A DNA stretch of 64,000 nt from Rhodomicrobium sp. R_RK_3 (GTDB lineage Bacteria; Pseudomonadota; Alphaproteobacteria; Rhizobiales; Rhodomicrobiaceae): the NCBI RefSeq assembly GCF_002198715.1, contig NZ_MWLK01000021.1:124001-188000 (forward strand). The letters are read 5' to 3'. Below the pieces are notes generated by a model, which saw only the letters and a list, made by a program, of their open reading frames with translations, was not told the origin of the DNA and ran no database searches. The translations under genes were made by a program, and so were the position numbers. Shown here one piece after another: positions 41,767-48,371 of the stretch (position 1 is the stretch's first letter; each line of letters opens with the position of its first letter).

Positions 41767-42147
41767 CTATTGCTTCCGGGTGGGGCCGAAGTCGCTGCCG
41801 GCTCGTCCGGTCCACCTGCCCGTTTTCAGGCACGCCGCCTTTCTCGCATCGCAGCCTTTCGCGCCATTCCCGGCGCTGAGGCATCGCTGATGGCGCTCCG
41901 AGCAGGTTGGCACGGGATCGCCCTCGCATTGAGGCCCCATCTGCCTGAAATTGTAGCAGCCGCTCTGCTGACAGAGGCCGATGCGGCCCGCGCAGGTGTC
42001 GTTGCACGTCGCCTTGGACACGCCGGTTGGGCAAGTGGTCCGGCACACCTTATGCCAGCGGGCGCAAAACTCGGCGCGGCTCTCGGCTTTAGCCAAGACA
42101 CAGCAGAAGACGAGCGCCAGCACGAGGAAGACAATGCGCTGCATCAC
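41767..42147 (-). CDS. Cys-rich exported protein, paralogue 1
   Basis: A 126-residue protein with a signal peptide (about 1-21). The mature part shows the spacing C-x6-C-R-x2-C-x8-C-x3-C-x6-C-x4-C-Y in its first half and further Cys pairs downstream (12 Cys in the whole mature chain). The protein at 44324 shows the same spacing. I do not know the family; probable disulfide-stabilised periplasmic or secreted product. Confidence 0.7.
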   Translation of the reverse strand: MMQRIVFLVLALVFCCVLAKAESRAEFCARWHKVCRTTCPTGVSKATCNDTCAGRIGLCQQSGCYNFRQMGPQCEGDPVPTCSERHQRCLSAGNGAKGCDARKAACLKTGRWTGRAGSDFGPTRKQ

Positions 42148-42372
42148 ACCCTCCCCAGTCAGTCATTGATCCTTCTACGGGGCACCATAAATTCCGACCC
42201 TGAGCAATAGCACAGTTGTTCGTCGAGAAATGTGGTGTCCATCCGATAGGGCAGGAAGAATTTGTTGCGGCGAACCATATCTCGGCCGGCGTTGGGCCGT
42301 CCATTCGGGGCTTCCCGGAGGCGGGCGGATCTACACGGACTCTTCATGTCCGGTGCCTAGGATAACGCCGCG

Positions 42373-43143
42373 GTGCGTTGGAGATGGGTTGCTGAAATGA
42401 GTTGCGTCGGCTGCCGTGACGGTGTTGGGTTCGACATGCCCATCACCATGGCCTTTCAGCCCATCGTCAATGTGGAGGCGCAGCAAATCTTCGGCCATGA
42501 GGCGCTGGTGCGCGGGCCGGACGGGCAGGGCGCGGGCTATGTGCTTGAGCAAGTCTCCGATGACAACCGCTATGCTTTCGATCAGCTCTGCCGGACCACC
42601 GCCATCGAGCTTGCCGCCAAGCTCGACATTTCCGGGCGCGGCGAGTGCGTCTCGATCAACTTTCTCCCCAACGCTGTCTACGAGCCGACCGCCTGCATTC
42701 AACTGACGCTTGCTGCCGCCTTGCGCACGGGTTTCCCCCTCGACCGCATCATCTTCGAATTCACCGAGAGCGAAAGCTACGAGCCGGCCCATATTCTCAA
42801 TATCCTGCAGTCCTACCGGGCGCAGGGGCTGAAAACGGCGATCGACGATTTCGGCGCCGGCTATGCGGGGCTTGGCCTCCTCACCAAGTTCCAGCCTGAT
42901 CTGGTCAAGCTGGATATGGAGCTGATCCGCGACATCGACACCAACAGCGTGAAGCGGACCGTGGTCAAGAACACGCTCGCCATGCTGCGCGACCTCGGCA
43001 TCAACACGATTTGCGAGGGCGTCGAGACGATCGGCGAATATGACGTGCTGCGCGATCTGGATGTTTGCCTGATGCAGGGCTTTTTGTTCGCCCGGCCCGC
43101 TTTGTCGAGCCTGGCCATTCCGGCATGGCCGGACCACGCATAG
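42373..43143 (+). CDS. Stand-alone EAL domain c-di-GMP phosphodiesterase
   Basis: A 256-residue protein that is almost all EAL domain. Catalytic positions are in place: EALVRG, NFLPNA (Asn), FEFTESE (Glu), IDDFGAGYAG (Asp-Asp), LVKLDM (Lys), EGVET (Glu) and MQGFLFARP (Gln). The YAFDQLCR sequence and general order resemble EAL domains of the BlrP1 type, but no BLUF photosensor precedes it; the N-terminus has only CVGCRD, a possible redox or metal patch. It degrades c-di-GMP to pGpG. A second ATG at 42397 is possible. Confidence 0.88.
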   Translation: MRWRWVAEMSCVGCRDGVGFDMPITMAFQPIVNVEAQQIFGHEALVRGPDGQGAGYVLEQVSDDNRYAFDQLCRTTAIELAAKLDISGRGECVSINFLPNAVYEPTACIQLTLAAALRTGFPLDRIIFEFTESESYEPAHILNILQSYRAQGLKTAIDDFGAGYAGLGLLTKFQPDLVKLDMELIRDIDTNSVKRTVVKNTLAMLRDLGINTICEGVETIGEYDVLRDLDVCLMQGFLFARPALSSLAIPAWPDHA

Positions 43144-43155
43144 CGCGGCATTCCG

Positions 43156-44109
43156 TCAATATCGCCAAAAACTTCTTTCCTGGGGCGTCGGCCATTTGCA
43201 TCCCGGCATCAGGCACCTTTTCGGCGTCCCCGGCTGGGCGGCGGAGCGCTTTGCCCAAAGCGGGTGCGAGGGGTCCTGGAGGACGCGCGAGGGGAGCGCC
43301 GCGGTGACCGTCGGCTTGCTGGGGGGCGATGGCTCGGCCTCCACCGGCTCCGGGAGAGACGCCGTCGCTTGCTCCGAAATGTCCGGCATGGCGCTTGGCG
43401 CCGGGGTCGGCTCGCGGCTCATCGGCTCCGATCCGGCCCTATGGTCAGGTGGAGATTTCACAAGTGGCGGCGCGGCGGGTTCCAATGAGGCGAGTTCGGC
43501 CTCCGGAGGCAGCAAGGGCGCCTTCTCCGGCAGCGGCGGCAGCAATGCCGGCGGCGGAGCAAGACGGGGCGGCCCCGCCAGCGCGGCCGCGAGGGCGGGC
43601 AGCCCGTCCCCCTGTCTCGGCGACACGGCCGGCTCGGCTTGCGGCAGCGGCTCAAAAGGCTGGACGAACGGCACAACCGTGATCGTCTTGACCTCCCGGA
43701 AACGCTTCGGTGCCTGCGCCCTCAGTGTTTCAACGGCCCATTCCTGGCAGAGGTCCGCCGGCGTGGTGCGAAACAGCTCGGCCACACTGGCAATGTCGCG
43801 CCGGCGCCCGATGTCCCAGAAACCGTCCTCGCCGGCCTGCTGGGCGCGCTCGCCCTGCTCACGGTCGAAGGTCTCGCTCGAGGGCAGCTCGCGCAAGGTG
43901 GTCTCGACGGCCGTGATGGCCTGGTCGGCGATGGTCGGCTCGAGCAACCGCTTGGTCCGGCAATAGCGGATCAGCCCGATCTTGTTGCGCCCGGCCTCGT
44001 AGACAATATCGTTTTCGTTGAACTGCTGGGCCCAAACTCTGTGCGAGGGAAGAAAGCAGAATGTCAGCCCAAGCAGCATAAAGAGTGATGGGAGTTGGAA
44101 CATACGCAC
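43156..44109 (-). CDS. Pro-rich exported protein of unknown function, 317 aa
   Basis: The signal peptide is about residues 1-28 (cut after VWAQ). A 120-residue domain follows, with paired Cys (RYCRTKR and DLCQEWA) and helices; then a Pro/Ala/Glu linker (about 155-270), ending in a Cys pair CLMPGCKW. The layout resembles envelope-spanning or surface proteins. The family is not recognised. It ends 12 bp after the stop of the opposite EAL gene. Confidence 0.7.
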   Translation of the reverse strand: MRMFQLPSLFMLLGLTFCFLPSHRVWAQQFNENDIVYEAGRNKIGLIRYCRTKRLLEPTIADQAITAVETTLRELPSSETFDREQGERAQQAGEDGFWDIGRRRDIASVAELFRTTPADLCQEWAVETLRAQAPKRFREVKTITVVPFVQPFEPLPQAEPAVSPRQGDGLPALAAALAGPPRLAPPPALLPPLPEKAPLLPPEAELASLEPAAPPLVKSPPDHRAGSEPMSREPTPAPSAMPDISEQATASLPEPVEAEPSPPSKPTVTAALPSRVLQDPSHPLWAKRSAAQPGTPKRCLMPGCKWPTPQERSFWRY

Positions 44110-44127
44110 CTCACCGCAGGTGGCATA

Positions 44128-44139
44128 TTTGTATACAAA
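44128..44139. promoter_or_regulatory. Perfect 12-bp palindrome in divergent promoter region
   Basis: TTTGTATACAAA lies between the divergent Pro-rich gene (44109) and the Cys-rich gene (44324), in a short AT-rich patch. It could serve as a shared operator. No regulator gene adjoins it. Confidence 0.4.
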
Positions 44140-44323
44140 CTTGCGGCGCCATGATGGCGAAATCGCGACGCTTCATGGCATGTGGTTCATACGCATGACG
44201 AAAAGCGGTCAGGCGAGCGCCCGGATTGCGACCGCGATTGTGCGAAAAATGCCTATCTGTCAACACAGTAAAGGCACGAAATAATCGTTAGCTGGCGCGT
44301 TGGGGTTTTTGGCGGAGGCCGGG

Positions 44324-44674
44324 GTGCGCTGGGCTAATCGATTATGCTGCTGTCTGTTCCTGGCTTTCGTCGTCGCGGGCGCCGGCGCGCCGCTTCACGC
44401 GACCGACCTGAAGTCACCCCATAAAACCTATCCGGACGAACGGCTCAACGCGGACGACGGGCCGACGGCGGACGATGTGGTGGAGTTCTGCTACGGCCAG
44501 CGCCGGATCTGCCGCAAGGTCTGCTATCTCCGCTTCCGCGACGACCTGATTGGCTGCCCACAATCCTGCGACAGCCGCGTGTCCCGTTGCGCCACCACAG
44601 GCTGCTACAGGTGGTCGGAGGCCGAAATCATCATCGCCGGCCGGTTCGGGGGCTATCAATGCCCTTCGAGATAG
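44324..44674 (+). CDS. Cys-rich exported protein, paralogue 2
   Basis: A 116-residue protein starting at GTG 44324, with GGAGG five bases before; a TTG at 44300 is an alternative. The signal segment is LCCCLFLAFVVAGAG. The mature part has C-x6-C-R-x2-C-x10-C-x3-C-x6-C-x4-C-Y, the same spacing as the protein at 41767 apart from two residues in one loop. Function unknown. It is followed by the convergent AbrB-type permease. Confidence 0.68.
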   Translation: MRWANRLCCCLFLAFVVAGAGAPLHATDLKSPHKTYPDERLNADDGPTADDVVEFCYGQRRICRKVCYLRFRDDLIGCPQSCDSRVSRCATTGCYRWSEAEIIIAGRFGGYQCPSR

Positions 44675-45830: not shown

Positions 45831-46646
45831 TTAAGCGTGACCGCTGCCCTCAATCAAGCGCGCGCACAGCCAGAATTCGCCCTGAATGACGCAGCCTGGC
45901 GCGAGTTCGCCGCGGAGCTGGCGGGTATCGGCGACGACATCGACTGTGCCGCCGAGGATTTTCACCTGCGCCGCATGAAAAACCTGGCCGGTCACGCTGT
46001 TGCGGCGCTGCTCCACCGAGAGCACGCGGCCGGCGAAGAAGGCGCGGGAGGCGGCGGTAAATTCGTCGGCGCTGGGATCGTGGAAGACAGCCGCGGAGCC
46101 GGCCTCGCCGGAGGAGAACAGGCCGCTGGCGAAGAAGCTTTCGGGGGTGAACTGCACCGTCTGGCCGATTTGGGCGCGGGCGAAGGCATCCTCGTCGGGG
46201 AAGACCATGAGGTCATGCGGGAAGGCGGCGATCTGCGCCACGGCCATGAACGGCGTGACGCGATTGGCCCACACGGCGTAATCGACGACGTCGAGCAATG
46301 CCACGGTCGAGCATTGGCGCGGGCGCGGTCCCGGCTCGATCTCGACGAAGACTGCGCCTTCGAAAGCGTTGTCGGTCGGGCGCTGGCGCTTCTTCATGAC
46401 CCTGACGGGCACCCGCCCGCTGCCGCTGAAATAGGGCGTCACCCCGACGATATCGAGCTTCTCGTCTCCGCCGCCGGCCGCCAGATGCACCCAGAGTTCC
46501 GAGCCGCTATCGGAGTGCCAGCGATAGTAATAGCCGGGCGCGCAAGGCTGTGAATAGGCGCCTGTGTCGGGCAGTTTACTCACCATTTCGGCCAGCTCTT
46601 CCGCCGAGCCGGCGTTGAACCCGATGACACTGAAATGATCAGTCAT
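45831..46646 (-). CDS. Conserved hypothetical protein, 271 aa
   Basis: A cytosolic protein with mixed alpha/beta pattern and no transmembrane or export signals. N-terminal FSVIGFNAGSAEELAEMVSK, then YYYRWHSDSGSELWVHLAAG and the middle FPHDLMVFPDEDAFARAQ, are distinctive but not linked to a known family. It appears in Rhizobiales-type genomes as a conserved hypothetical by my recollection of style only; no function is claimed. Confidence 0.72.
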   Translation of the reverse strand: MTDHFSVIGFNAGSAEELAEMVSKLPDTGAYSQPCAPGYYYRWHSDSGSELWVHLAAGGGDEKLDIVGVTPYFSGSGRVPVRVMKKRQRPTDNAFEGAVFVEIEPGPRPRQCSTVALLDVVDYAVWANRVTPFMAVAQIAAFPHDLMVFPDEDAFARAQIGQTVQFTPESFFASGLFSSGEAGSAAVFHDPSADEFTAASRAFFAGRVLSVEQRRNSVTGQVFHAAQVKILGGTVDVVADTRQLRGELAPGCVIQGEFWLCARLIEGSGHA

Positions 46647-48011: not shown

Positions 48012-48371
48012 CTACGCCATCAGCCCGGCGCGGCGGCCGACCTCCCAGCAGCTTTTGGCGCAGGCGCGGCAGGCCTCGGCGCAGCGGCGCATCTCGGCGT
48101 CGCCGACGGCGTCGCAGGAGCGCGCGCAGGCTTCGCAGATCGCCGCGCAGGTGGTGCAGACCGAGGCGTGCATTCGCGAGTTTCTGGTCATGAAATCGCC
48201 GCTGGTCTGACAGATCTGGATGCAGTCCACCATCAGCCGGACATGATCCGCCTCGGCGTGCTTGCCGCCTTTTTCGAGGCAATAGTTGAACAGCACGGAT
48301 TGGCAGGTATCGCGGCAGGTCCAGCATTTCTCGATGCAATCCAGCAATGCCGGATCCGTATTGTGATGCAT
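48012..48371 (-). CDS. Four-helix bundle Cys-rich copper-binding protein (Csp-like)
   Basis: A 119-residue protein with Cys regularly spaced on four helices: CIEKCWTCRDTC, YCLE, VDCIQICQTS, CTTCAAICEACARSC and RCAEACRACAKSCWE. Such Csp proteins hold many Cu(I) ions in the core of the bundle. No signal peptide is present, so this is a cytosolic Csp3-type. The ATG at 48371 follows AAGGAG; an upstream extension to 48404 is not needed. Confidence 0.9.
   Translation of the reverse strand: MHHNTDPALLDCIEKCWTCRDTCQSVLFNYCLEKGGKHAEADHVRLMVDCIQICQTSGDFMTRNSRMHASVCTTCAAICEACARSCDAVGDAEMRRCAEACRACAKSCWEVGRRAGLMA

Follow-up and report, generated by a model that had tools for sequence, protein, structure and literature searches.

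Two cysteine-rich proteins at the locus

The window analyzed here is the whole 64,000-nucleotide stretch of Rhodomicrobium sp. R_RK_3 contig NZ_MWLK01000021.1 from position 124,001 to 188,000. It encodes two apparently exported cysteine-rich proteins, P1 (41767..42147, minus strand) and P2 (44324..44674, plus strand), which bracket the genes for a stand-alone EAL-domain protein and a proline-rich (Pro-rich) protein. In the open reading frame list of the window, P1 on the minus strand is followed by the EAL gene on the plus strand, which converges on the Pro-rich gene on the minus strand, with P2 beyond it on the plus strand. P1 and P2 belong to a real family that is undescribed within the searches made; on balance, we lean toward reading its shared unit as a disulfide-stapled helical-hairpin mini-domain that would be extracytoplasmic and likely act as a rigid binding module, with the EAL gene as an incidental neighbor.

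A Shine-Dalgarno-like run lies upstream of each start: the ATG at 42144, behind GGGGAGG, is a better and likely the true start of P1 compared with the listed end at 42147, and P2 begins at the GTG at 44324, preceded by GGAGG. Third-position GC is 0.81 in P1 and 0.79 in P2, with 0.80 for the EAL and Pro-rich genes between them, and both N-termini are apparent signal peptides as judged by eye. Aligned over 116 codons with its ortholog in G001, a Hyphomicrobiales metagenome-assembled genome from the same taxonomic family, P2 shows 48, 35, and 66 differences at codon positions 1, 2, and 3, as expected of a coding sequence under selection.

The mature part of P1 contains 12 cysteines, arranged as a predicted full hairpin (mature residues 1-56; 41917..42084, minus strand) followed by a reduced second hairpin (mature residues 57-105; 41770..41916, minus strand), and that of P2 contains eight, in a predicted single full hairpin with a short tail. 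With numbers standing for the residues between cysteines, P1 reads C6C3C-8-C3C6C, SGCY...C, then C6C-9-C6C and KTGRW, and P2 reads C6C3C-10-C3C6C, then TGCYRW...GGYQC. The pattern common to both is C-x6-C-R-x2-C-x8/10-C-x3-C-x6-C-x2-[ST]-G-C-Y, with successive cysteine gaps of 6-3-8-3-6-4 in P1 and 6-3-10-3-6-4 in P2. The first-pass annotation of this DNA had placed two proteins with a common spacing at 41767 and 44324; both open reading frames are present with these ends, and the spacing was reproduced. Such spacing arose by chance in 161 of 300,000 shuffles of mature P1 (12 cysteines) and in 13 of 300,000 shuffles of mature P2 (8 cysteines). Pairwise BLASTP aligned the two proteins at E 1e-5 (27% over 51 amino acids), and a whole-genome search with P1 as the query reached P2 only at E 0.086.

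Family membership and distribution

Further members were detected by single-query and profile searches of related genomes. P1 alone found a tandem pair in G042 (E 0.006 and 0.009), and P2 alone found its G001 ortholog (E 1.8e-29, 49% identity), which was also the sole relative in a contig scan; weak rows of the single-query searches were dropped, save P1, P2, and the G042 pair. A five-row profile added G281 and G058, with two of nine rows dropped (G022 and G104). At E 0.01, a seven-row profile returned 26 rows in 24 of the 397 genomes of the order, 14 of which carry the cysteine pattern on reading and 12 of which were dropped, and in the class it matched two of 385 genomes at E 0.001, the window's own and G701. 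At E 0.001, a 14-row profile matched 14 of the order's 397 genomes, counting that of the window; when read, all 17 of its rows proved to keep the six-cysteine core, although the gaps are shorter in G379:C13. In the phylum sample, four of 299 genomes matched and two (own and G041) were accepted; two of the five rows were dropped, one with an internal stop and the other on a short frame lacking the first helix. A sample of 38 genomes from the genus of G041 yielded one further member, G1038.

A looser cysteine pattern, applied to the two strands of each of the 99 loci, gave no match in the loci of dropped rows except in L054 (G383), where the match is an overlapping opposite-strand frame that the profile does not recognize. 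The looser pattern also matches a few extra frames beside true members, for example one in L067, and the pattern alone was therefore not accepted as membership. Plasmid searches with three queries including P1 found no relative, nor did a scan of viral contigs with P2. The domain is sparse and patchy in its distribution, and its spread is probably under-counted because the first look of each genome scan scored at most 17-23 candidates per genome.

No Pfam or NCBIfam family accounted for P1 or P2. Neither protein matched a Pfam family at E 10, and in NCBIfam P1 gave two matches at E 0.25, scoring about 10 bits where the cut-offs are 478 and 793, and P2 gave none. The 14 aligned members produced weak matches only, the best being E 0.0059 in Pfam (DUF7107, three members), E 0.0013 in NCBIfam (a cation antiporter subunit, one member), and E 0.031 in PHROGs (one member). 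By title, we found no literature on a bacterial family of this kind, in a search that lay outside InterPro, COG, and subscription papers. On the literature, Pfam, NCBIfam, and PHROGs, the family is thus apparently undescribed, which agrees with the first-pass proposal of an uncharacterized secreted family, with export judged by eye.

The six-cysteine core and its specificity

Across 14 aligned rows, the core reads C-x6-C-x3-C-x(7-13)-C-x(3,4)-C-x6-C-x2-[TSR]-G-x-[YWF]. Six cysteines and one glycine are invariant, an aromatic residue stands two positions past that glycine in 14 of 14 rows, and the interhelix loop is not conserved. The cysteine order is palindromic (C6C3C...C3C6C). Eight-cysteine members, and P1 and P2 as well, carry an extra cysteine in a G-C-[YWF] motif and another 8 to 18 residues later. 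Searched against a small local database, the first hairpin of P1 aligned at E 1.6e-7 with a P1-like G379 protein (56 columns, 41%), and the second aligned at E 0.008 with the G343 member.

A profile of 11 other members, built without P1, P2, or the G001 ortholog, recovered P1 at E 3.3e-11 and P2 at E 2.7e-9 among 888 window frames, with the next-best frame at E 0.047; these 11 members had first been found through P1, P2, or profiles containing them, which makes the recovery partly circular. In addition, the 14-row profile was run against 3839 frames (282 kb) plus reversed copies, and 19 frames, all of them members, outscored the best decoy (weakest member E 8e-5, best decoy E 0.0011). That decoy, L025, is one of the members read in reverse, an outcome that a palindromic cysteine pattern leads one to expect. 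As the members came through P1, P2, and profiles holding them, this comparison shows consistency and is no blind test. The shared spacing of P1 and P2 is real and confirmed.

The same scores bear on whether these proteins form a single family at all, as unrelated short exported proteins could have reached a stapled hairpin separately. Low conservation beyond the cysteines and glycine (mean column identity 38%) speaks for such convergence, as does the reversed L025, whose score indicates that the cysteine pattern alone carries much of the signal. We nevertheless consider convergence improbable, as the members in forward orientation reach 21 to 63 bits, compared with 18 for the top reversed decoy, pairwise matches link some subtypes, and [TSR]-G-x-[YWF] follows the sixth cysteine in all 14 aligned members, a motif outside the local regular expression, yet inside the profiles.

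Predicted fold and disulfide pairing

At 100 degrees per residue, a helix sets positions i, i+7, and i+11 at angles of 0, 340, and 20 degrees, and positions i, i+4, and i+11 at angles of 0, 40, and 20 degrees, and each helix would therefore bear three cysteines on one face; by the same arithmetic, the mirrored order of the second helix suits an antiparallel partner. The AlphaFold2 model of P2 places C29, C36, and C40 on a helix of residues 22-43 and C51, C55, and C62 on a helix of residues 50-65, joined by a loop, with a predicted local distance difference test (pLDDT) score of 85-92 for the block, which we regard as modest evidence for the hairpin. The P1 model contains two hairpins, the second with helices at 61-70 and 75-88.

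We propose that these proteins are exported to the oxidizing periplasm or to the outside, a location suggested by their apparent signal peptides. Each of two antiparallel helices would present its three cysteines (at i, i+7, i+11 in the first and at i, i+4, i+11 in the second) along a single face, so that C1-C6, C2-C5, and C3-C4 could pair as three stacked disulfides and lock the hairpin after export. The [TSR]-G-x-[YWF] motif would form a turn after the second helix, and in many members a fourth disulfide, C7-C8, may follow. The domain would be used alone, doubled (as in P1, with the second copy reduced), or at the C-terminal end of a caspase-like protein, and would serve as a rigid, protease-resistant extracytoplasmic binding module.

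Cysteine-rich proteins may instead bind copper or zinc and act as periplasmic metal chaperones or stores, and zinc is bound by small Tim proteins (twin CX3C) in their reduced form (PMC3759932). The cysteine count is even in each of the 18 members counted, out of 19, taken as mature proteins or as excised domains, with cleavage sites and domain ends placed by eye and G076, near-identical to G111, left uncounted. Such even counts and the palindromic helical-face spacing suit stacked disulfides, and no histidine or methionine column is conserved. A by-eye reading of the neighborhoods recognized no recurrent metal-handling gene, yet transport genes flank the G071 member. Taken together, we think a metal-binding role quite doubtful.

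Against the PDB, the seven-row profile gave as its best match the alpha-hairpinin vicilin-buried peptide-10 (E 0.006, next 0.048), and a PDB sequence search with P1 alone gave nothing below E 0.98. The members could be alpha-hairpinin-like effectors, exported as antimicrobial peptides or as protease inhibitors against competitors or foreign proteases; alpha-hairpinins have a CX3C...CX3C arrangement closed by the bonds C1-C4 and C2-C3, and some of them are antimicrobial or inhibit trypsin (PMC7191063), and several members are basic (+11 and +15 in the G042 pair). Net charge (K+R-D-E) over the members, however, ranges from -2 to +15, and there is therefore no uniform cationic make-up. The unconserved interhelix loop also argues against this role, and no immunity or toxin gene was recognized beside members in a partial, by-eye reading of neighbors from their first residues. 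We consider such an effector role unlikely.

In the fold searches, the P2 model aligned with nitric oxide synthase (VIA-align Z 7.2, rmsd 2.5, 60 aligned); with the best Foldseek match at E 0.6, this similarity was set aside, as a Z of 7.2 is below the level deemed telling for helical models and is therefore taken to reflect a common helix arrangement. Among the matches listed, the best for the P1 model reached Z 5.8 (rmsd 2.5, 51 aligned). Both results are second looks at matches listed and exclude no fold.

Fusion to caspase-like proteins

In G041, the matching module forms the C-terminal end of a protein of 532 residues that has an apparent signal peptide and matches Pfam Peptidase_C14 at E 5.5e-37. 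The G1038 module (45% identity) ends a protein whose N-terminal part, by eye, resembles the same peptidase, in a locus that stops short of the start of the protein. These two caspase-like proteins, from one genus, lie in loci L084 and L093. The genome of the window has six Peptidase_C14 matches, none of which carries the hairpin module; one of them spans the right edge of the window from about 63916 (G000:C14:187916-188593, 152 bits), roughly 19 kb from P2. To our knowledge, the role of caspase-like proteins in bacteria is largely open.

A binding role for the module is weakly inferred, because it ends two peptidase-like proteins and has no recognized enzyme domain. More specifically, the three-rung hairpin might be a regulatory or substrate-docking module of exported caspase-like proteins, with the stand-alone P1 and P2 acting in trans as partners or inhibitors, an idea we regard as a long shot.

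Neighboring genes and the proposed c-di-GMP link

The genes between P1 and P2 lie outside the family. The EAL-domain protein (42373..43143, plus strand; Pfam EAL, 148.3 bits) has as its best NCBIfam model RimA (NF052265), at 317.2 bits and under the cut-off of 430. Its EAL, DDFG, and other catalytic motifs appear intact. The apparently exported Pro-rich protein (43156..44109, minus strand) has a sub-threshold ESAT6_1-like N-terminal domain, matching NF035933, a model that bears the name of a pore-forming ESAT-6 family, with 34 bits (E 3.4e-8, cut-off 100). A paralog in its own genome (G000:C20:68427-68930; 35% identity, E 2.5e-23) gives 29 bits to the same model, and the Pro-rich protein otherwise has no relative at E 1e-5 in 60 other genomes. 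The cysteine pair noted at its C-terminus in the first-pass annotation is present (C-x4-C, ...KRCLMPGCKWP...), but it is missing from the paralog, and the protein was rejected as a third family member.

That annotation had further suggested that the secreted proteins may be linked to cyclic di-GMP (c-di-GMP). In such a system, P1, P2, the EAL protein, and the Pro-rich protein would together form an exported system under c-di-GMP control, and the divergent pairs P1/EAL and Pro-rich/P2 do share intergenic regions, the latter with the palindrome TTTGTATACAAA. Searches by tblastn with the EAL protein and the N-terminal part of the Pro-rich protein, however, yielded no match at E 0.05 in 14 member loci from 13 other genomes (193.5 kb), several of them ended by the contig and with G041 and G1038 left out. 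With no EAL relative in these loci, the EAL gene is therefore not a conserved neighbor. Neither gene accompanies the P2 ortholog in G001, albeit on a contig of 6.3 kb, and the lack of Pro-rich relatives in the 60 genomes weighs the same way. Genes flanking members, read by eye and not annotated singly, vary between lineages, with synteny in close pairs, G281/G309 and G111/G076 among them. The c-di-GMP link was rejected on the member neighborhoods and, as an explanation for the locus, is not supported and very unlikely; the EAL gene is most likely a chance neighbor. The first-pass interpretation as a whole is partly supported.

The palindrome TTTGTATACAAA is a perfect 12-bp sequence at 44128-44139, between the divergent Pro-rich and P2 genes, and is a possible operator. 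It is the sole exact copy in the window, with one further copy at two mismatches (36455) against a chance expectation of 0.25 matches at two mismatches or fewer. Elsewhere in the window, a 271-amino-acid open reading frame (45831-46646, minus strand) between AbrB-like and leuB-like genes has no Pfam match at E 0.001. A small open reading frame with many regularly spaced cysteines (48012-48371, minus strand) satisfies the loose cysteine expression and likewise has no Pfam match at E 0.001; by appearance, it resembles a four-helix copper-storage protein.

Weight of the evidence and meaning

Several observations weigh against the stapled-hairpin interpretation that we favor. The G379:C220 member has x5 in place of x6 before its sixth cysteine, and in the G379:C13 member two gaps shrink to 5 and 2, against 7-13 and 3-4 elsewhere. 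The reversed member at E 0.0011 and its dependence on the cysteine pattern count here as well, and a profile that lacks P1, P2, and G001 scores the weakest member (L090) at E 0.0013, barely ahead of the best decoy (0.0023). Each structure model was built from three sequences only; the five P2 models have mean pLDDT values from 40.0 to 76.4, and the P1 model has a mean pLDDT of 72.6 and a predicted template modeling score of 0.51, with C18 just beyond the first helix. Foldseek found no match to the P2 model below E 0.6. Finally, the disulfide pairing is deduced from spacing and model, export is read from signal peptides judged by eye, and the binding role comes from two fusions in one genus.

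If the stapled hairpin is correct, these proteins add an unnamed extracytoplasmic domain to alphaproteobacterial genomes and tie it to caspase-like proteins. The idea of a helical hairpin with three stacked disulfides is testable on one small protein, and with a profile of the domain, annotators could recognize proteins that are unnamed in Pfam, NCBIfam, and PHROGs.

Comparison with known systems

Three known systems resemble the proposed hairpin in part. The YARHG domain is a small helical extracellular domain that ends a secreted caspase-like protein from Bradyrhizobium (PMC3355149), as the present module does in G041. It differs in probably having four helices and in conserving cysteines only in a subgroup, and at E 1 Pfam listed YARHG neither for the 14 members nor for the caspase-like protein of G041. 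The small Tim and CHCH proteins of mitochondria, with twin CX3C and twin CX9C motifs, respectively, are helical hairpins locked by two disulfides, one inner and one outer, in an oxidizing compartment (PMC3759932). The proposed bacterial hairpin would follow the same locking principle, with three rungs in place of two, and the seven families that Pfam listed for the 14 members at E 1 include neither Tim10 nor CHCH.

Of the known kinds, the alpha-hairpinins look most similar, with a likeness of at best E 0.006. These plant peptides, which include the vicilin-buried peptides, are small helix-loop-helix molecules with one CX3C per helix, of the form XnC1X3C2XnC3X3C4Xn in which X is not cysteine, bonded C1-C4 and C2-C3, with antimicrobial and trypsin-inhibiting members among them (PMC7191063). 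The inner four cysteines of P1 and P2 form the same C-x3-C...C-x3-C arrangement, and the proposed inner rungs C3-C4 and C2-C5 would correspond to the alpha-hairpinin bonds C2-C3 and C1-C4, whereas the flanking cysteines at x6 breach the rule that X is not cysteine and some members have x4 in place of x3. Unlike the alpha-hairpinins, the bacterial family adds a CX6C step to each helix, which would provide the third rung, and it has the TG-x-aromatic motif and fusions to caspase-like proteins.

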